In this document: positions 15,141-24,180 of the stretch, one piece after another
How the letters are laid out: each line of letters starts with the position of its first letter
Numbering within the stretch: position 1 is the first letter of the stretch
Assembly: GCA_963580285.1 (NCBI GenBank)
Contig: OY757021.1
Span: 97,950,149-98,014,148 of the forward strand
DNA from: Lucinisca nassula
Lineage: Eukaryota > Mollusca > Bivalvia > Lucinida > Lucinidae
DNA length: 64,000 nt
Reading direction: 5' to 3'
Program-made: the position numbers and the translations under genes
Notes under the pieces: generated by a model
Database searches by the model: none
What the model saw: the letters and a program-made list of their open reading frames with translations, nothing else
Told to the model about the DNA's origin: nothing

Positions 15141-16250
15141 TTAAAAAATTCGGTTTATCTGCTTGACGAGATCGTCTGGAGGATTGGGAAGTGCTAAAAA
15201 TAAATGGGTGAATTTAGCCAAGGCTAGAGATTTTATAATTGTTATACGACCTATTAATGTCAACCTTCTTTTTGTCCATTGTTTACAAATATTTTCAACT
15301 TTATTCAGAACTTCGTAGTAATTCAAGTCCCAAACATAATTAACATTAGTTGAAAAATTGACGTCAAGTACTTTAAACGGGCCTTGATTCCAGTCAAGAT
15401 TGAATTCACGACATTGGCGTGTAACCGAATTACTCAACACTCCAATGCAAATAGCACGTGTTTTTTCAACATTGATCTTAAGTCCTGACAAAAAATAAAA
15501 CTGATTTTTAAACATTTAACGTCTCCCTCAAAGACCTTTCTGAACCGTCCAGGAAAATCTGAGTTTTATCGGCATATTGGCTTAGTTTAAACACCTTGTT
15601 ATCAATATTAATGCCTCGTATTTCTTGATTATTTCTTATCATCTGACCCAATAATTCAGCAGCTAAAACAAATAGGTATGGAGATATTGGGTCTCCTTGT
15701 CTGCATCCTCTGTTCAGACTGAAACTTTCAGACATAAATCCATTCTGTATGATACAGGATTCAGAACCTTTTTGAAAATTTCTTACCCATTTTCTGATTG
15801 AAGGTCCAAAATTATAATACTTTAAAGTTTTATCGATAAATTTCCAAGAAACTGTATCAAATGCTTTTTCATAATCAGTCGATAATATCAGACTGGGAGA
15901 TTTTGTTGTTGTGTTTCAAATAAAACATCATAAAACATTCTTATGTTTTCGCCTATATATCTACCTGATAAAAATCCCTTTTGGTCTTCATGAATAAGTT
16001 TATTTAAAACATTTTTTATTCTATTTGCTATAACCGCAGAAACCATTTAATAAATTACATTAAGCAATGAAATAGCATGCCAGTTTTTAAGGGTCTGTCT
16101 ACATTTATTTGATTTTGGAATACAGGTTATGACACCTTGTTTTTGAGTAATAGATAGATTTCCACATCTATAACCATAATTAAGAGATCTTAAAACAAAA
16201 TAGCCTAAATTTATCCAAAAAAAAAAAAAAATCAGGGTAAATCAATCTTG
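15141..16250 (-). pseudogene. LINE ORF2, reverse transcriptase domain
   Basis: On the minus strand, the segment encodes LSTDYEKAFDTVSW near 15855-15895, then LNRGCRQGDPISPYLFVLAA (15640-15720), then LSQYADKTQIFLDGS (15550-15600), then SGLKINVEKTRAICIG and RRLTLIGRITIIKSLALAK. These are the ordered motifs of a LINE reverse transcriptase. The catalytic YADD box reads YADK, so one of the metal-binding Asp residues is lost. Several frameshifts separate the pieces. The function would be target-primed cDNA synthesis, but this copy cannot do it. Confidence 0.88.
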
Positions 16251-16582
16251 ACCGGGACTTTTCCAATTCTTCATAGTTTTCAGAGTTTCACCTAGTTCAA
16301 TGAAAGTAATTTCGCCTTCAAGTTGATCTGAATCAAGGTCAGAAAGTTTATTGTCGTTTTCTCCGAGAATATTTTCAATATCTTCGTCATTTAACGGTTC
16401 ATTTTCATTATATAAATTACAATAGAATTGTTTCTGACAGTTTAAAATATCATTAGTATCTGTGTATTCTATCCCTTCCTCAATTAATTTGTTAATTACT
16501 TTACTGGTAAAGTTTCTATTTCAAGATTAAAGAAATAATTTGTAGGCTTTTCTCCCAAGTCTTGGTATGGGCACCTTGATCG

Positions 16583-16795
16583 TTACATTACCCGATCTAT
16601 TTTATCTTTTCTTATATTGAATAATTCTTCTTTTTTTGTTATTAAGTCACGTATGTTTTCATCAGAGATATTATGAAAGTTAGCATTTATTTCGTTTTCT
16701 AATACTTTAATATCGTTTTCCAGTTTTAATTCGGCTTCAGAAGTTTTTCTCTTTTTTTCAGAGGAATATTTAATAGTTATACCTCTTATCATCAT
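16583..16795 (-). pseudogene. LINE ORF2, linker between endonuclease and reverse transcriptase
   Basis: Encodes MMIRGITIKYSSEKKRKTSE and a Glu/Lys-rich helix. This is the usual linker sequence of L1/Tx1-type ORF2 proteins between the endonuclease and reverse transcriptase domains. It is in a different frame from its neighbours. Confidence 0.7.
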
Positions 16796-16921
16796 AAATA
16801 AAGTTTCTAAAAATAACTGGTCATTTATATTAAATTTAATGTTTTCAATATCATTTATGTTGTTTTGATTTAAACTGTATGTCTGTTTTACCTCTTCTAT
16901 TGTTTCTTTTACTTTCTGTAT

Positions 16922-17708
16922 CTAATCCGGATCTTTGAGTAAAGAGTTACTGAATTTCCAATAACCTTTTCCTCTCTCATTATTTGTTAATTTCAAATTT
17001 AGCAAAATACTGCTATGATCAGTTCTATAACCCGAGAGAATATCAGTGTCAACCACAAACTGTGATAGATTTTTACTGACCAGAAAGAAATCTAAGCGGG
17101 CCTGTTTATGTGTAGGATTTAACCTACGCCAAGTAAATATCTTGCAATTTTCATTCATCACCCGCCACACGTCTATAAGATTTTCTTCTTCAATATAGTT
17201 TAAAATTACCCTTTTTGCATTTGCATTATTGACATGCAAATAGTTTTCACAATCAATTTCTGGATCCAAGATAAAATTCCAAGCATAAAATTATTTGATC
17301 ATTTTCAAATTCAGCAATTTTTTGCAACAAAGTGGTATAAAAATTAGGGTTATCTTGATTTGGGCCATAGAGATTAACTAAAGTTATTTTTTTTCCTTGT
17401 ATGTGTTTATATCCATAATAATATAATTTCCATTTTTTGTCTGCCTTTACTTTATCAACTTTTTGAGCAAAGTTGTTATTTATAAGTATCATAACCCCTC
17501 TACTATTAGTTGTATATGAACTGAAGTAGGCATCATATCCCCATTCGGCTTTAATAAAAGGCTCTAACTGCGGCTTTACATGAACATCTTGTAAGCAAAT
17601 GATGTTGTATTTTTTAGACTTAACATAGTGAAACAAATCTCGCCGTTTTGTTACTTCAGATAGTCCTTGACAGTTCTGTGAGTAAATCCTTAACGGTTCA
17701 GACGTCAA
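16922..17708 (-). pseudogene. LINE ORF2, APE-type endonuclease domain (frameshifted)
   Basis: 17253-17708 encodes LRIYSQNCQGLSEVTKRRDL, then NIICLQDVHVKPQ and SRGVMILINNNF. 16922-17269 encodes DPEIDCENYLHV, then ARLDFFLVSKNLSQFV and YRTDHSSILL, then GKGYWKFSNSLL. This is an APE-like nuclease of the L1/Tx1 group: the Asn-Cys-Gln-Gly start, the LQDxH box and the final SDH-like box (here TDHS). The frame shifts at about 17270-17285, just where the Gly-Asp-Trp-Asn motif should be, so that motif is damaged. The domain nicks the target DNA in active elements. Confidence 0.88.
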
Positions 17709-17899
17709 ATCGAACTGTTTCTATGAATCCATACCCAAAATGAGCCATACTGAGAAAAGCGTGCTGGAGCAGAAACGGAAACCAAAACCAAAATACTTAT
17801 GGTATAAACAATATTAAAAAACTACCTACCAAAAAGGTGATCATTTTCCGGTATGCTATTAATGGTACCTCTGTAGTGATATTCATAGCATTTTATTTT

Positions 17900-18008
17900 C
17901 TTCTTCTTTGTCCGTGTTGTCGGCCAACTGGGCCAGCACCTCCTCCAGCAGTCTCGTAGATATCGTCGAGCGAAAGATTCGATTTTCCCATTTTGCCAAG
18001 CAGTTGTA
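17900..18008 (-). pseudogene. Left arm, continued beyond the LINE
   Basis: This continues the inverted copy after the LINE target duplication. The reverse complement matches the coiled-coil coding part at 18463-18515, then jumps to the segment at 18153-18190 that starts an ORF (MGKSNLSLDDI), then matches 18077-18090. It therefore lacks about 270 bp and about 66 bp relative to the right copy. The deletion joints are at short direct repeats and have no GT-AG ends, so they are not removed introns. Confidence 0.8.
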
Positions 18009-18090
18009 GAGCAGAGGAAGCAAAACAAGCAGTCCGGAGACAAAACAAGAAAGCAGCTATGCAAACGAGGAAACAACTGCTTGGCAAAAT
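17995..18090. repeat. Centre of the large inverted duplication
   Basis: gccaagcagttgt at 17995-18007 pairs with acaactgcttggc at about 18076-18088, leaving a spacer of about 68 nt. The outer arms extend from here to 11668 on the left (with the LINE between) and to 19335 on the right. Confidence 0.8.
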
Positions 18091-18274
18091 TCTCGGAATG
18101 TTTCCGATTTGTTCACGTCCCGATTTGGAAATATATCAATTGCGTTGGATACAAAATGGGAAAATCGAATCTTTCGCTCGACGATATCGAATTTATTCGC
18201 AAACCCAAAGGCCTGCTATCGGGCACCGAAAATACAAAGTAGGTCAAAATAGGCTAGAAAAATATGGGGACAGG

Positions 18275-18299
18275 GTGCGCACGCTATATAACGTGCGTC
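18275..18299 (+). promoter_or_regulatory. TATA-like box inside a small palindrome, candidate promoter
   Basis: gcgcacg (18277-18283) and cgtgcgt (18292-18298) form an inverted pair around tatataa (18285-18291). It lies just upstream of the plus-strand coiled-coil/transmembrane ORF. It is a candidate only; no transcript start can be seen from sequence. Confidence 0.3.
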
Positions 18300-18324
18300 T
18301 CGCGACAATCCTGCACTAGATATA

Positions 18325-18832
18325 TCGGAGCCAGCACAAAGCATCTTGCCCTACAATGGAGTTGCTTCCGTTGGCTCCGCCAAAGACCAACAACAAGCCC
18401 CGCGCCCGACTGTAGTAGACTTCTACAAAAGGCTGGAGGGACTCGAGTCCCAAGCACAGTAATCTACGAGACTGCTGGAGGAGGTACTGGCCCAGTTGGC
18501 CGACAACACGGACAAAGAAGAAGACGAAGATAGAGCTCGATGCCTTCCTAGAAGAGACAGAGGAAAAAACAGAGGAGGCCCAACAAAATACCCGGACGGT
18601 CCTTGAGAAAAAAGAGCAAATGGTAGATACGGCCCGAGGAATGGTACACATCTCGATTGCCGCGGCTGTCGTCCCGGCGGTGGTCGCAAAGACCTGGAAC
18701 CATTGTACGCCCATGGCTCCGCCACACGCGAACAAGCCGCCGAACATCAACCCGCCGGCCGTTGTTTCCGTTCCTCCGGAGGAACTAGCACAGAAGCCAC
18801 CGTCGGTCGGGGATCCCTTCTACATGGAATAG
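18325..18832 (+). pseudogene. Virus-like element: coiled-coil and transmembrane protein
   Basis: A plus-strand reading frame of about 165 codons with at least two frame breaks. In order it encodes a segment ending in TVVDFYKRLEGLESQAQ, then after a shift LLEEVLAQLADNTDKEEDED, then after a second shift near 18530 a Glu/Lys-rich helix with TRTVLEKKEQMVDTARG. Next comes a hydrophobic segment, VHISIAAAVVPAVVA, followed by a Pro-rich tail ending PSVGDPFYME at the stop (18830-18832). The inverted copy has Trp residues flanking the hydrophobic stretch, which suits a membrane helix. Acidic coiled coil, single membrane segment and Pro-rich tail suggest a membrane-associated or structural protein, but I recognise no family. 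The start is not certain; a short ORF beginning MGKSNLSLDDI at about 18160 may be a separate upstream gene. Confidence 0.55.
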
Positions 18833-19313
18833 TCGAAGACCCCCAAGTATTTTCGAGTACCTTCGAACAGCTGGAGCTGGCGGAAGCTGGTGCCCACAAA
18901 GTCGAAGCCTGGAGCTGGGGAGAAGGAACATTTGGACGAGAACATATATCTGCGAAATACATATATGCAAACTCTGTTTGCGGGCAGGCATGGAGCTCGT
19001 GCAGAAAAGAGGATGTTGTCCTAGGCTCCAGGGGTTTGGAGAACACAAGAACTACATGGAAAGGGGGCACATCGAGTTGGGAGATCTAGAAGAGATCCGG
19101 GAGGCTTCCTGCGAATGGGCGTTGGAACTGGGTTGGGGTCCCGACGGAGAAGATAGGATAGGGACGAGGGAGAAGTGTGTTAGGAAGATCTTGGGGGAGA
19201 TCTCGCCCGAAATGGCGGAAGAAATGTTGGGGTGGAAACACGGGGGTTTGTACGTTGTGGCCATTTGCGGGGCTCCTGTATTCTGCACAAATCTTGGAGG
19301 GGTTGTACGCTAG
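18833..19313 (+). pseudogene. Virus-like element: second plus-strand ORF, unknown function
   Basis: Following the previous stop without a gap, plus-strand frames encode FEQLELAEAGAHKVEAWSWG and, after a shift near 18995, a run with YMERGHIELGDLEEIREASC, then LGWGPDGEDR and a C-terminus LYVVAICGAPVFCTNLGGVV before the stop at 19311-19313. The left inverted copy conserves much of this sequence with a few in-frame differences, which suggests it was coding when duplicated. I recognise no family. The stop codon overlaps the stop of the minus-strand gene. Confidence 0.5.
19310..19313. other. Overlapping stop codons of convergent genes (CTAG)
   Basis: The plus-strand frame stops at TAG 19311-19313 and the minus-strand frame stops at TAG read on the complement at 19310-19312. 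Both lie in the one palindromic tetranucleotide CTAG. This leaves no intergenic space and is typical of very compact viral or plasmid genomes. Confidence 0.8.
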
Positions 19314-21951
19314 ACGGCTGGTGTGGAGGCTATTGAGACCATCCTGTCCTTCCTCTTTGTAGGCGTCGACTTTTCTCCCCCAAACCTGCAGAGGATAGGG
19401 CTCCGCATCTTTTCCAGCACTGTCGGCCCACCAAGGCGCTCCTTCTGCAGAAAGTGTCCGTACGTTGGGTGTTCCACATCCGTCGTCGGCTCTCCCCTCT
19501 TGTCTAGGGGAACCATATATAGCAGCGTTCTGGGGGCTCCCCGAAACATCTGCGAGCAGAAACTTCTGCCGAGATATTCTTCTGGGAGCATGTCCACGGC
19601 TTTCCACAGATCTGTAGATTTGGGGGCGATCTCCACCCGTCGCACACACGAAATCTTTTCGACAAATTCCGCCTCCGACTCTGCCAACCTCTGGAGAGTC
19701 TCTACGCTTAGATTCCCAGGAGCATGCAATGCTTGGATTGGATTCCAGCAAACCTCCATCCCTCGCCTACTTAAGAACTTCTTGCTCGGCTGCACTTCTG
19801 TCTCCAGGCCCCGCACCAGGGCGTTGTGCTCCAGCGCTGTCATCCAGTATATGGTTTTGTAGCGGCCGTCGTCCACCCGTTTCTCGAAGAATTCTTTGCA
19901 GTTGGATAGGATCCTAGCCAGGCTCTCTGTTGCCCACACCGCTATCCTAGAGTTTGAATCGTTCAACAGCACGACCCTAGGCTTTCGTGTATCCTGGTGC
20001 TGCTCCCGAAACCCCAGCACGATCCACCTATCCGGTTGGAGGCTAGAGATCTTGCTGGTCTGCATGGAGGATAGGATCCCCACCACCTCCTCCTCGGTTT
20101 TCCGCGAAGCAGCCATGTACTCCCGATGCTCGGTGGCAAGCTTGGATATCTGTTCTAGCTCCCCTTGCCTATACCGCCTGTTTTTTTTTCCTTTGCTTCT
20201 TCCAGCCGTTTTGGGGTCTCCCTCCTCCACTTCTCTATGTCGGCGGCTTGGAACAGATCCCAAAGCCTCTTCTCTCTGTCTCGTGTAGAGAGCGTGGAGA
20301 GTCGGCGACCACTGGCTATCTCCTGCATTTCCACGATCTGGAACTGCGAGGTCTCCGCAGCGATCCGATGGGTCTTCTTTTCCCTCCACACCCAGGACAC
20401 CTTGTCGGTCGGTGGAAGAATGGTGGATGGATCCGGCCCGTTTGGGTGCAGGGCTGTCGGTTTCTTACTATCGTCCAGGATCGTCGCGGAGCCAGCGTCT
20501 TTGGTGTAGCAGCGAAGCGGAGAGAAAAGGATGGAATCCTCGCCGTCCTCCCGCGCACCTTGCCTGGTTTCCAGTATATCCTCCCGAAATATCTTGCAAT
20601 CCCGGAATCCAAAATTTGCCGCAGCCCATTCCACAGCCCTCTTCCAGCTGCCATCGTTGTCCACGGTTTGTGGCGTGGGGCGTATCCGCATGCCGGCCAC
20701 CCTACCAGTCCCGGTGTGCGCATGCCAGGCCACGAAGATTGTCCCTTGGGGTCTGTCGGCTAGGACAAGGCACCTATCCAGGCTGCCGGCCAGGTTTGTC
20801 CACAACCTAGAAGGCGGCTGTACGACAAACAGATCTTCTTCCTCAGGAGACACGACGCCAAGCGCCTCCTCGACCAACTCTTTTGCCGTGTCCGTGGAAA
20901 GATCCCTGCCCCTGCACGCATAGAGGGAGACCTCGATCCTTGTGCATTCTCTTTCTTGCATATCCGGGTGCGAGAAAGTCCTCCGCAGGTGCTCGTTCGG
21001 ACAGTCCACATAGTCGGCGAGATGGCCCCCATGTGCTCCCGAACCTCCCCGGCCTCGAAGTTGGAGACGACCTTGTTGTAGAGCTTGGTTCGACCCCAGT
21101 ACCCGCTCGCCCCCGTTCCTATCCAGGTCCAGACATGGTTCCCCACGGACTTGGTGTTGTCCAGGACTGTCGGGGCATCCCTATTCGCGAGCGCGCCGTT
21201 GGGATCTTCTTGTATCCTGTACCCAAGCTTTTCCAGGTGGGCCACGAGAGCTTGCCGGTCCAACGTCCCGGAGAAATCCTGGGTGTAGTCGATGGAATAG
21301 AGGCCGTAGCCTTTCCCGAGAAGCAGTTTCTGGAGTTTTGGAAGCCTTGCCTGTAGGCTGTCTATCTCCACCTCGGAAACATCCACCTTCGCCACGAAGA
21401 TCGCGAATGGGTCTTCCCCGTGCAGCTTCTTCCACCTTGTCTCCCCGAGCCTATCGGTATCCGCCTCTATTCTTTCCACCGTGGCCAAAATCGTGCTGCT
21501 GCGTGCGTCGGACCGAAATGCGATCGTGTGCACAATATTCGTCTGCATGTGCTTCTCGCCGTCCAGAGCCTCCCGAATGCTCCAAGAAATAGGCCACGAC
21601 CACCTGCGCCGACCAACCTTCCCCGGTCGTGCACGAGGCTCTGCCGGCCCTGGACACGCAATGCTCCCTACGTAGGTATTCTTACACATACACATCGTCC
21701 ACAAAGGTTGGGAGGCCTTCGAGGGGGTGCAGCCGCGTCCTCCCCGAGTGCCCTTCCAAGTAGTCCACATCCGAGATGTCGGGAACAAGGTTGCTCTCGA
21801 ATGCGTTTTCCAGGAGAAGATGGGTTGCCACAGATTTCTCGGAAAAGAGCCCATCTCTCGAAAGGTTCGTTCTACAACTTCCATTTTTTTCTATGGTAGT
21901 ATGCGATATGTCTACACTATCGACGGTGATCTCGATGTTTTGCACTACCAA
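19310..21951 (-). pseudogene. Virus-like element: large replication-initiator-like protein (frameshifted)
   Basis: Minus-strand frames at 21682-21951, 20760-21660, 20155-21021 and 19310-20180 read as one interrupted gene of about 870 codons. Visible in order are YGLYSIDYTQDFSGTLDRQA, then SGYWGRTKLYNKVVSNFEAG, then CTRIEVSLYACRGRDLS. This order resembles, by eye, the Rep_trans family (PF02486) of rolling-circle initiators such as RstA: a strand with an Asp-rich motif, a (K/R)xYxK box and an RIExxL box. Further on are IFVAWHAHTGTGRV and LRCYTKDAG; His-Ala-His followed by a Tyr could mimic an HUH/Tyr pair, but this is weaker. The C-terminal 270 codons (RWIVLGFREQHQD, TIYWMTALEHNALVRGLETE) are unrecognised. 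Frame breaks lie near 21660, 21030 (one base) and 20183 (a T8 run). No ATG opens the first frame, and its best start is TTG or an upstream in-frame codon. The base composition is clearly richer in G and C than the surrounding intron. Confidence 0.6.
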
Positions 21952-21955
21952 TTGT

Positions 21956-22645
21956 CTAATTCGAAATTTCGATATACCTGGGTAGTGTGTGCTTGTCTAC
22001 ACTACCGATCTGTCCGATAGACAACCGCTGCGGGGGTAAAAATACGCTCTCCTTCGTCGACCTCGATGTGCGCCTGCTGCGACTTTTTCGGCACAATGCC
22101 CTCTTCCCCATCTTCCGGTGCTTTGTCCTTCCCCGCAGGAGGGCCGCGCGCGCAAGGTCTTCTCGCACTTTTGTGTTCTCGACCTCCAGCTGCTCCTTCC
22201 GCCTCCCTCTTTCTTTCCGGGCTTCCGCAAGGTCTTCTCGCAGTTTTGCATTCTCGGCCTCCACTTCCCTCCGCCGCAGTCTTTCTTTGCAAGCTTCCTG
22301 CAGCCCCACATTCCCCAGTGCGATGTTGCGCATCATGGCGTTCTCCTTCTCCAGCTCCTCTCGCCGACATTGGCCTTGCTCTGCCTCGTCTTTGGTGTGC
22401 TTGGATTCGGCTTGCGCTTGCTCTGCGCCGTTCTTGGCTTCGTCTCGTGCCTGCTCTGCGTCGTCCTTGGCTTCGGCTCGCGCATGCTCTGCGTCGTCCT
22501 TGGCTTCCTCGTTCTCCAAGCCTTTCCGAATACGGAGAACCCGTCGTTCTCCTATCCCATATCTCGACTTCGCTGCCCGTATACCAATCTCGCCCGAAGC
22601 GATATGCCGAATAGCTTCCTCGGACAGTTGTGTTTTCCCAGGCAT
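21956..22645 (-). CDS. Virus-like element: helix-turn-helix, coiled-coil protein
   Basis: An intact 229-codon ORF starting at an ATG (22643-22645). Residues 1-45 (MPGKTQLSEEAIRHIASGEI, then GIRAAKSRYGIGERRVLRIR) have the pattern of a helix-turn-helix of the transposase or resolvase type. From about residue 48 follow repeats of the form EAKDDAEHARAEAKDDAEQA, a long charged helix likely to be a coiled coil. A further RRREVEAENAKLREDLAEAR-type segment and a basic C-terminus follow. The role is probably DNA binding with oligomerisation, as a regulator or terminus-binding partner of the downstream initiator-like gene, but this is inference. Its stop is 4 nt before the first codon of the next frame on the same strand, an operon-like spacing unusual for animal genes. 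Repetitive Ala/Glu/Lys sequence makes function hard to assign by eye. Confidence 0.6.
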   Translation of the reverse strand: MPGKTQLSEEAIRHIASGEIGIRAAKSRYGIGERRVLRIRKGLENEEAKDDAEHARAEAKDDAEQARDEAKNGAEQAQAESKHTKDEAEQGQCRREELEKENAMMRNIALGNVGLQEACKERLRRREVEAENAKLREDLAEARKERGRRKEQLEVENTKVREDLARAALLRGRTKHRKMGKRALCRKSRSRRTSRSTKESVFLPPQRLSIGQIGSVDKHTLPRYIEISN

Positions 22646-22669
22646 TGCAATGCTTTGCGTCTCTACTTC

Positions 22670-22878
22670 TCTAGTAGGATGTCCCTACCCTGTCCCTACC
22701 TGTGTGTGCATGCTGGGTGTCCATACCCTGTCCCTATCTGTGTGTATGGCTGGGTGTCCCTACCCTGTCCCTATCTGTGTGTGCGTACTATAGGCGTCCC
22801 TATCTGTGTGCATGCTGGGTATCCCTACCTGTGTCTGGTGAGCGCATGCTGGGTGTCCCTACCTGTGTGCGCATACTG
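22670..22878. repeat. Minisatellite of about 36 bp next to the virus-like block
   Basis: About six degenerate units built on tgctgggtgtccctaccctg and tccctatctgtgtgtgc. It lies directly upstream of the helix-turn-helix gene, at the right end of the GC-rich block. Confidence 0.9.
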
Positions 22879-22939
22879 AAATAAGTAGCACAAAATCCTG
22901 GTAGAGTGCGGGGAAAATGCGCTCTCCTAAAAAAAATGT

Positions 22940-23015
22940 CCTCGGCATCCCCACTCGGTGGGGCCGATCTGGGGGTTGGTTGGCCCCACAGTGTTGGGGT
23001 GGGGGTTGTCCCAGA
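22940..23015. repeat. GC-rich hairpins at the right edge of the block
   Basis: Two short foldbacks: gcatccccactcggtggggc at about 22945-22966, and ggccccacagtgttggggtg. They could be element termini or chance structure. Sequence beyond about 23010 returns to AT-rich DNA. Confidence 0.45.
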
Positions 23016-23019
23016 ACTC

Positions 23020-24180
23020 CTGTTTTGTATACTTCTCAGGTGTCATTCCCGTACCACAGGCATGAAGGCGTATGATGTCAAATAATGCTGACGCCCGAAA
23101 ATTAAATAAAAACCATACAGAAAGATGTTGACCATGTTCTGTTACTAATCCTATACTCTGACCATCTTGGACAAAAAGGTGTCGATGAAATGATTAATCA
23201 CATATTTTTAAAGAATGTTTGTACGATTTTGCAAAGGAAAACGGCAACCGGAAGTACGAATCCTCCAGCAAACGCAAAGCGTTTTCCAGTGAGATTTAAA
23301 TTATATACAATGGAAGGAAATGGAAGAGAAAACACTGTGTTTTTAAACATGGACATACATTGAATACAATATAGTACATACAGAAACCTGTTTGTGCCAT
23401 ACAGTCTTCCGTCGCAACGATATATGACGAAATTTTCAGTTTATTAACGTATTGTAATGGTAACTCCTAAAGTTTTTGATACTACATTATCATGCATGTT
23501 ACATACAAAGACATCTTCATTTATTGATTGCGAAGCATACAAGGGTGTGACTGTCCTTTATCTGGCCGACCAGTATGCATATGCAGATTTCATAGGTCGA
23601 ACGATCAACACGCAAACCACACTTAACAATACGGGGTGACAGTCTTCAAGGGGGTATTTATATAATAGAAATATTTGGCCAATAAAATAATAAGTTACAC
23701 ATATTTATTAAATATGTCATATACACGCCTTCTATACAAAGCTGTATGCAAGATGTTTTCTATTCATTTATTACTGTTGAAAACGTATTGTATATTTACA
23801 TGACAAAATTGCTGATAGTATTACCATATGTATCCAAGATGTACGATGTATTAAATATAAGTATTTTCTATTTGGATGTAATCTATTTTATTCATATTAT
23901 TTTATTTTTACATAGTTGCATGTGTAAACAATTCATTTTAAGCTAATTTGAAAATGTTCTTATTCCACTTATAATGTTTTATTATCCACAAATAGTTATA
24001 TACAGACATTTTATAAATACTTACGAGAGTTGAATAATTTATTCAAAACTACATGTACAATGAACAAAGAATATACTTCATACAAACTTCGCAAAATTGA
24101 ATAGTTCGCAGTAAAGTTAATTACTTACTCAAATTACAATGTATTATTTACAAATATTTATTTTCAAATATACCTTATTT
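23020..24180. other. AT-rich intronic stretch with nothing recognised
   Basis: No repeat borders or coding pattern were found. The small frames at 23457-23639 and 23746-23946 lack any family resemblance. Confidence 0.5.

Follow-up and report, generated by a model that had tools for sequence, protein, structure and literature searches.

A palindromic mobile element with a Rep_trans-like gene and terminal modules common to larger elements in the bivalve Lucinisca nassula

We analysed a window of 64,000 nucleotides from Lucinisca nassula (assembly GCA_963580285.1, contig OY757021.1, positions 97,950,149 to 98,014,148), and found that a block rich in guanine and cytosine (GC) within it is an arm of a palindromic mobile element that has decayed, Table 1. 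The arm has three genes: a broken one for a protein of ~870 amino acids whose conserved residues match those of Rep_trans plasmid initiators, one for a helix-turn-helix coiled-coil protein, and one for a protein of helix-turn-helix, coiled-coil and transmembrane type. The explanation that we favour, and regard as fairly probable, is that the element is a helper-dependent snap-back satellite transposon, i.e. a unit with inverted arms of three genes that carries the ends of larger, likely Polinton-type, elements and its own Rep_trans-like initiator.

The palindrome, its copies and its ends

An initial annotation, made from the sequence alone, had proposed that 18090..22900, in a block richer in GC than its surroundings, holds a small and decayed mobile element whose initiator gene is Rep_trans-like. 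The composition bears this out (0.51-0.58 GC per kb across 18001-23000, against 0.27-0.47 in the remaining 1-kb steps of the window), but the element is longer than proposed, reaching 17899 on one side and 23036 on the other. A search of the host genome (2.93 Gb, 696 contigs) with the large-gene piece 20155-21009 gave at least 150 matching stretches; as 137 out of 444 candidates were scored, this is a minimum. The stretches merge into at least 120 copies of the gene. The proposed element is thus present in many copies, together with its neighbouring genes. Neither of the two findings named beforehand as contrary to that proposal was made, i.e. a place for the protein in an unrelated host family, or a single copy without its neighbours.

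Among neighbouring pairs of copies within 12 kb, 21 are convergent, none is divergent and one is tandem. Ten of the convergent pairs were fetched for comparison. In all ten, the arms are inverted and homologous to 18073-22930, and the two sides have lost unequal parts of the centre. Out of 20 arms, 9 reach the outer boundary that the copies share (window 22901-22990), and the other 11 end earlier or diverge there. Eight other, seemingly single, copies were read at the centre; three have a second arm, two have only the loop in the fetched stretch, and three have neither. With the window included, a second arm is present in 14 out of 19 copies read. The loop is in plus orientation in four copies, in minus orientation in four and mixed in one. 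In the window, the second arm has shrunk to inverted copies of 18462-18524, 18152-18188 and 18073-18090, fused end to end.

To compare the arms, a tree was built from the 20 arms of the ten copies and the window. In 10 out of 10 cases the arms of a copy group as sisters, with a support of 97-100, and little of the branching between copies is supported. When three segments were each used for a separate tree, 7 of 9, 5 of 6 and 6 of 6 testable pairs were recovered. Within a copy, the arms are 3.8-7.8% divergent. As the arms are sisters in the tree, they become alike as copies arise, similar to the two long terminal repeats (LTRs) of a retroelement, which are alike at copying. The cause would be that the self-complementary copied strand folds back, with repair or copying within the hairpin. 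Gene conversion in place could have the same effect, but terminal branches are similarly long within pairs, in agreement with a clock that started at insertion.

In copies that reach it, the arm body ends with ...AAATGCGCTCTCCTAA (window 22930), and one of two end modules, A or B, then follows. The end TRCTRCT, or a sequence one change away from it, was found at 24 of about 46 outer-end stretches (16 of type B and 8 of type A, the window counted), while the remaining ones have no recognisable terminus within the stretch examined. The terminus of the window is TACTTCT, and the seven other type A ends have TACTACT. The ends of the element are inverted, not direct, repeats. Both ends are known in three copies: L009/L010 is flanked by AGCCT and L027/L028 by GACTC, both exact duplications of 5 bp, and L025/L026 has no exact target duplication. 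A further copy, L015/L016, has TACTACT on both sides, but here the inverted repeat runs on beyond it through a ~165-bp tandem repeat, unlike in the other copies read. This TACTACT was excluded from the end count because the inverted repeat continues past it.

Two observations concern the distribution of element pieces. At G000:C12:69651732-69652014 the central loop forms a head-to-tail array with a period of about 53 bases (69651744, 69651822, 69651875, 69651928), and may have seeded a small satellite on C12. On C19, three rep pieces of near-equal score (G000:C19:73479851-73480513, 73793910-73794569 and 74100775-74101437) lie ~310 kb apart, a spacing that perhaps reflects large segmental repeats.

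Table 1. Features of the element in the window, and its two types of end module.
Feature	Position	Strand	Remarks
Left-arm remnant, 109 nt	17899..18007	-	inverted repeats I1-I3, 98-100%
Central loop, 65 nt, between arms	18008..18072	.	present in both orientations in other copies
Right arm body of palindromic element	18073..22930	.	homologous inverted arms in 10/10 fetched pairs
Third gene, broken in window	18156..18832	+	helix-turn-helix, coiled coil, one transmembrane-like stretch
Rep_trans-like gene, broken	19310..21951	-	frame changes and in-frame stop
Helix-turn-helix and coiled-coil protein, 229 aa	21956..22645	-	4 nt upstream of Rep frame
Subterminal minisatellite, ~37-bp units, TGTCCCTACC-rich	22660..22880	.	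varies from copy to copy
End module, type A, terminus at 23036	22931..23036	+	same module caps larger elements
End module A			final letters ...CATTGTGTATACTACT
End module B			final letters ...GGCTGAAACAAAAAGTSYATTCACCCTCCCTGCTGCT

Beside the element, at 15508-17708 on the minus strand, lies a decayed non-LTR retrotransposon, with remnants of the long interspersed element type. Its pieces match a reverse transcriptase (RVT_1, E 1.3e-6) and an endonuclease (Exo_endo_phos, E 1.5e-4), both just below the Pfam cut-offs.

The genes and the Rep_trans-like protein

The 4-nt gap described initially between two minus-strand frames is present, between 21956-22645 and 21682-21951. The large gene lies in several frames with an in-frame stop and extends to 19310 on the minus strand. 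Its boxes IDYTQDFSG, KLYNK and TRIEVSL, which are of catalytic type and fall within about 20920-21300, are found in the order first described, but spread over two different frames of the broken gene and not in one. The convergent stops that share a CTAG (19310-19313) seem to overlap by chance, with the plus-strand stop belonging to another frame, because the conserved plus-strand gene starts near 18156 and ends at 18832, not at 19313. This third gene is open across 227 amino acids in copy L009 and has relatives with 60% (P0135) and 57% (P0136) identity, both over 99% of the query. The 229-residue frame matches HTH_psq with an E-value of 0.021 and 15.0 bits, where Pfam requires 20.4. Both helix-turn-helix proteins, of which one has a transmembrane-like stretch, may have a role in holding the DNA or its ends. 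The structural gene that had been considered possible gained no support: no capsid gene and no superfamily 3 (SF3) helicase was matched in the arm by Pfam (10 frames) or PHROGs (4 frames). In the same 10 window frames, Pfam gave no match to a polymerase, integrase, packaging ATPase or capsid.

The large-gene piece 20155-21009 has 27 database relatives, with E-values from 1.8e-98 to 4.5e-5. A profile built from 12 of these obtained 206 matches at E up to 10. The best 120 of the 206 are all at E < 1e-76, include natural forms of ~845 amino acids, and have no Pfam domain and no informative name. The source names among the relatives include Nematostella vectensis, Elysia crispata, Actinostola sp., and metagenome-assembled genomes (MAGs) of the clam symbiont Candidatus Thiodiazotropha. 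Five proteins of the element family (P0013, P0014, P0023, P0136, P0137) are filed under the Thiodiazotropha MAGs, and these likely represent host DNA contaminating the symbiont bins. The MAG AB2556 contains the Rep pieces P0013, P0014 and P0023 plus the third gene P0136, so the third gene accompanies Rep in another sample; these two of the three genes are conserved in other genomes. Pattern and tblastn searches of IMG/VR and GTDB contigs, and tblastn searches of phage and plasmid records, gave no relatives of the large protein.

In an alignment of 69 relatives, the near-invariant residues are D53/D54, D196, Y265 flanked by K263 and K267, and R312-x-E314. The pattern used for comparison has three acidic metal ligands on separate strands, a catalytic tyrosine between basic residues, and R-x-E (PMC4797284). 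In its residues the large protein has this feature set, i.e. three acidic metal ligands, a tyrosine between basic residues, and R-x-E, where the correspondence of D53/D54 comes from aligned ranges only. The fold and the active site are predictions. The predicted structure has a curved sheet, together with a long coiled coil and a weak OB-like match as extra parts, and appears to match the Rep_trans fold, a crescent-shaped double sheet, less firmly than the residues do. No credible helicase was found in the 69 relatives among 25 of 50 Pfam families (AAA_11 in two at best E 2.8, a replicative-helicase model in one at E 0.036), and there is no histidine among the near-invariant columns of the alignment that could form an HUH pair. 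The predicted product, a Rep_trans-like nicking enzyme, likely starts the copying of the element. Its function appears to be under selection, because the active-site-type residues are near-invariant over the 69 relatives and Rep and the third gene are kept together in another sample.

Larger elements and the choice between explanations

The end modules also occur away from the rep copies. A search with the module-B end (query L028) gave 719 first-look candidates, 40 of which were scored, with 43 matches. We compared the modules with the position of a gene of the larger elements (L060:571-1179, minus strand), which encodes a protein of 203 amino acids with a hydrophobic middle and no credible Pfam or NCBIfam match, and for which 150 of 2662 genome candidates were scored. 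Among the 40 distinct module-B places, 15 are near rep copies or the loop, 11 near this gene and 14 near neither of those listed. Within 25 kb, the gene lies inward of module A in 10 out of 40 places and inward of rep-free module B in 4 out of 25, and it is never found outward (0 of 40 and 0 of 25), where ~0.05 per 40 places is expected by chance. From this inward-only placement, modules A and B are the terminal repeats of larger elements. These are ~17-25 kb long where both ends and an L060-type gene are seen, and five module-B pairs without rep lie 16-31 kb apart. In one such element, C16:91043480-91060062 (16.6 kb), the terminal repeats span 544 columns with 92.6% identity. Of this repeat, the rep copy L031 has nearly all (88.7%) and L017 and L029 have most, and in many other rep copies it is reduced to the last 50-100 bp.

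From their size, their terminal repeats and an ATPase-like piece, the larger elements are likely of Polinton type. The ATPase-like piece is a Pox_A32 match in one of them (E 0.001, 19 bits, cut-off 22.8). Polinton-type polymerases are abundant in the genome, with at least 148 stretches when 69 of 2025 candidates were scored. The polymerase frames are often ~1425 amino acids long and nearly all without stops (e.g. G000 C22:18004682, C15:37782715), which perhaps indicates a recent burst.

According to the mechanism that we propose, the Rep-like protein would nick at or near an end, and strand displacement would free a self-complementary single strand. This strand would snap back at the 65-nt loop to form a hairpin duplex of ~5 kb, where mismatch repair, or the copying of one arm from the other, would even the arms. 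A helper integrase would then recognise the shared terminal repeat and insert the palindrome, duplicating 5 bp of the target. Once inserted, the long palindrome would lose its centre unequally from the two sides, leaving unequal arms as in the window. Four results weigh against the satellite transposon. The signal per site is modest: measured by raw distance, 14 out of 20 arms have their mate as the closest arm. The full Rep_trans signature (R140, A144, E196) is not present, with S/C before D196, T at 198 and S/C at 270. The PF02486 profile is absent from the families of P0039 and from 25 of 50 families for the 69 relatives. Finally, among the polymerase stretches listed, none was seen by eye within paired module ends. 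A scan of the host genome with PF02486 also gave no matches, with a positive control in B. subtilis.

Other explanations account for parts of these data. An autonomous palindromic transposon, whose Rep-like protein makes staggered nicks, mobilises the element by excision or copying, and also carries out the insertion with 5-bp duplications, would explain the initiator-like gene and the two DNA-binding-type proteins in each arm as well as the defined ends and duplications, and the similarity of the ends would be secondary. We consider this unlikely, as L031 carries nearly the whole, and L017 and L029 most, of the terminal repeat of another element, and two different modules are found on the same body, as if the ends were borrowed. 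The shared ends would also be expected if the copies were defective snap-back products of a Polinton-type element, with a captured rep as passive cargo and copying by the protein-primed polymerase of the helper; such products are known from protein-primed linear genomes, e.g. adenoviruses. However, cargo of this kind agrees poorly with a Rep and third gene kept in another sample, and with active-site-type residues that are near-invariant over 69 relatives, and this origin appears quite unlikely.

It is very unlikely that the copies are endogenous viruses, derived from a linear DNA virus that replicates by hairpins and became integrated in snap-back form, for which self-complementary parvovirus derivatives are the comparison. 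The self-complementary build, the Rep-like gene, the small gene set and the sister arms agree with such an origin, and the predicted structure has three matches at E < 0.001 in a viral structure library, one of them an uncharacterised phage protein. These matches say little because they are aligned at a root-mean-square deviation of 25-29 Å. Neither the arm pieces nor, as far as shown, the relatives have a credible match to a capsid, packaging or helicase protein. No relatives were found in IMG/VR (pattern and tblastn) or in phage records, and the ends shared with resident elements and the 5-bp duplications are in line with a transposon. Long reads can give fold-back artefacts (PMC12870357), and the inverted repeat of L015/L016 extends past the usual end. 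Nevertheless, with arms of one copy that differ by several percent, and two copies with clean ends and exact target duplications, it is hardly credible that the palindromes are assembly artefacts or ordinary inverted duplications of host DNA.

The helper-dependent satellite transposon thus remains our preferred explanation. There is about an even chance that it represents a new class of eukaryotic mobile element, a hairpin-replicating satellite with its own Rep_trans-type initiator that wears and swaps Polinton-type ends for their integrase. Elsewhere, initiators of this type are, to our knowledge, those of bacterial plasmids, phages and conjugative elements. If true, this class of animal mobile DNA would join a plasmid-type initiator, a transposing unit in the form of a giant palindrome with genes, and ends borrowed from a larger resident element; our literature searches turned up no element of this kind and no description of these three features together. 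It would also be a case of satellite and helper among eukaryotic transposons, illustrate the entry of long palindromes into genomes and their decay, and offer a testable hairpin-based route of transposition. With arms re-templated in each cycle, every copy would be its own clock, like an LTR element. Many genomes could be re-annotated, because the best 120 of the 206 relatives lack a Pfam domain or informative name.

Comparison with known systems

The initial annotation was right about a mobile Rep_trans-like element, but was made without the palindrome, the sister arms, the defined ends and duplications, and the modules common to larger elements. By the features tested it also correctly set the element apart from Helitrons and Replitrons, which are likewise eukaryotic elements with a tyrosine nickase (here a predicted one) as the key protein. 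A Helitron was rejected because there is no credible helicase domain among 25 of 50 Pfam families, and no conserved HUH pair, in the 69 relatives. A Replitron was rejected because the ends are inverted; by definition, Replitrons have short direct terminal repeats and no terminal inverted repeats (PMC10741241).

With the Rep_trans initiators (PF02486; RepD of pC221, RepSTK1) and the MOBT relaxases, the large protein shares the order and kind of metal ligands, the tyrosine with basic flanks, R-x-E and the predicted curved sheet. It differs by its occurrence in genomes that are likely eukaryotic, its ~850 amino acids and extra parts, the lack of a profile match, and an R-x-D-x-A-x-D signature that is incomplete. 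The element resembles parvovirus-type rolling-hairpin replicons, and snap-back derivatives of these, as self-complementary linear DNA with a Rep. A virus of this type was rejected, as the Pfam (10 frames) and PHROGs (4 frames) searches of the arm gave no SF3 helicase or capsid; the nickase is of a different type and the ends are transposon-like.

The Polinton/Maverick elements, which have terminal inverted repeats of several hundred bp and target duplications of 5-6 bp, are probably similar in their ends, as the modules are terminal repeats of the likely Polinton-type ~17-25-kb elements, one of which holds an A32-type ATPase-like piece, and two of the three copies with both ends known have exact 5-bp duplications. 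The element itself was not accepted as a Polinton, since its arm has three other genes and, in the 10 window frames scanned, no match to a polymerase, integrase, capsid or ATPase, and the palindrome body is ~10 kb. The very long inverted repeats are also found in Foldback/Galileo-type elements, in contrast to which the element has no DDE transposase match, carries genes inside both arms, and has arms that are re-templated at copying.
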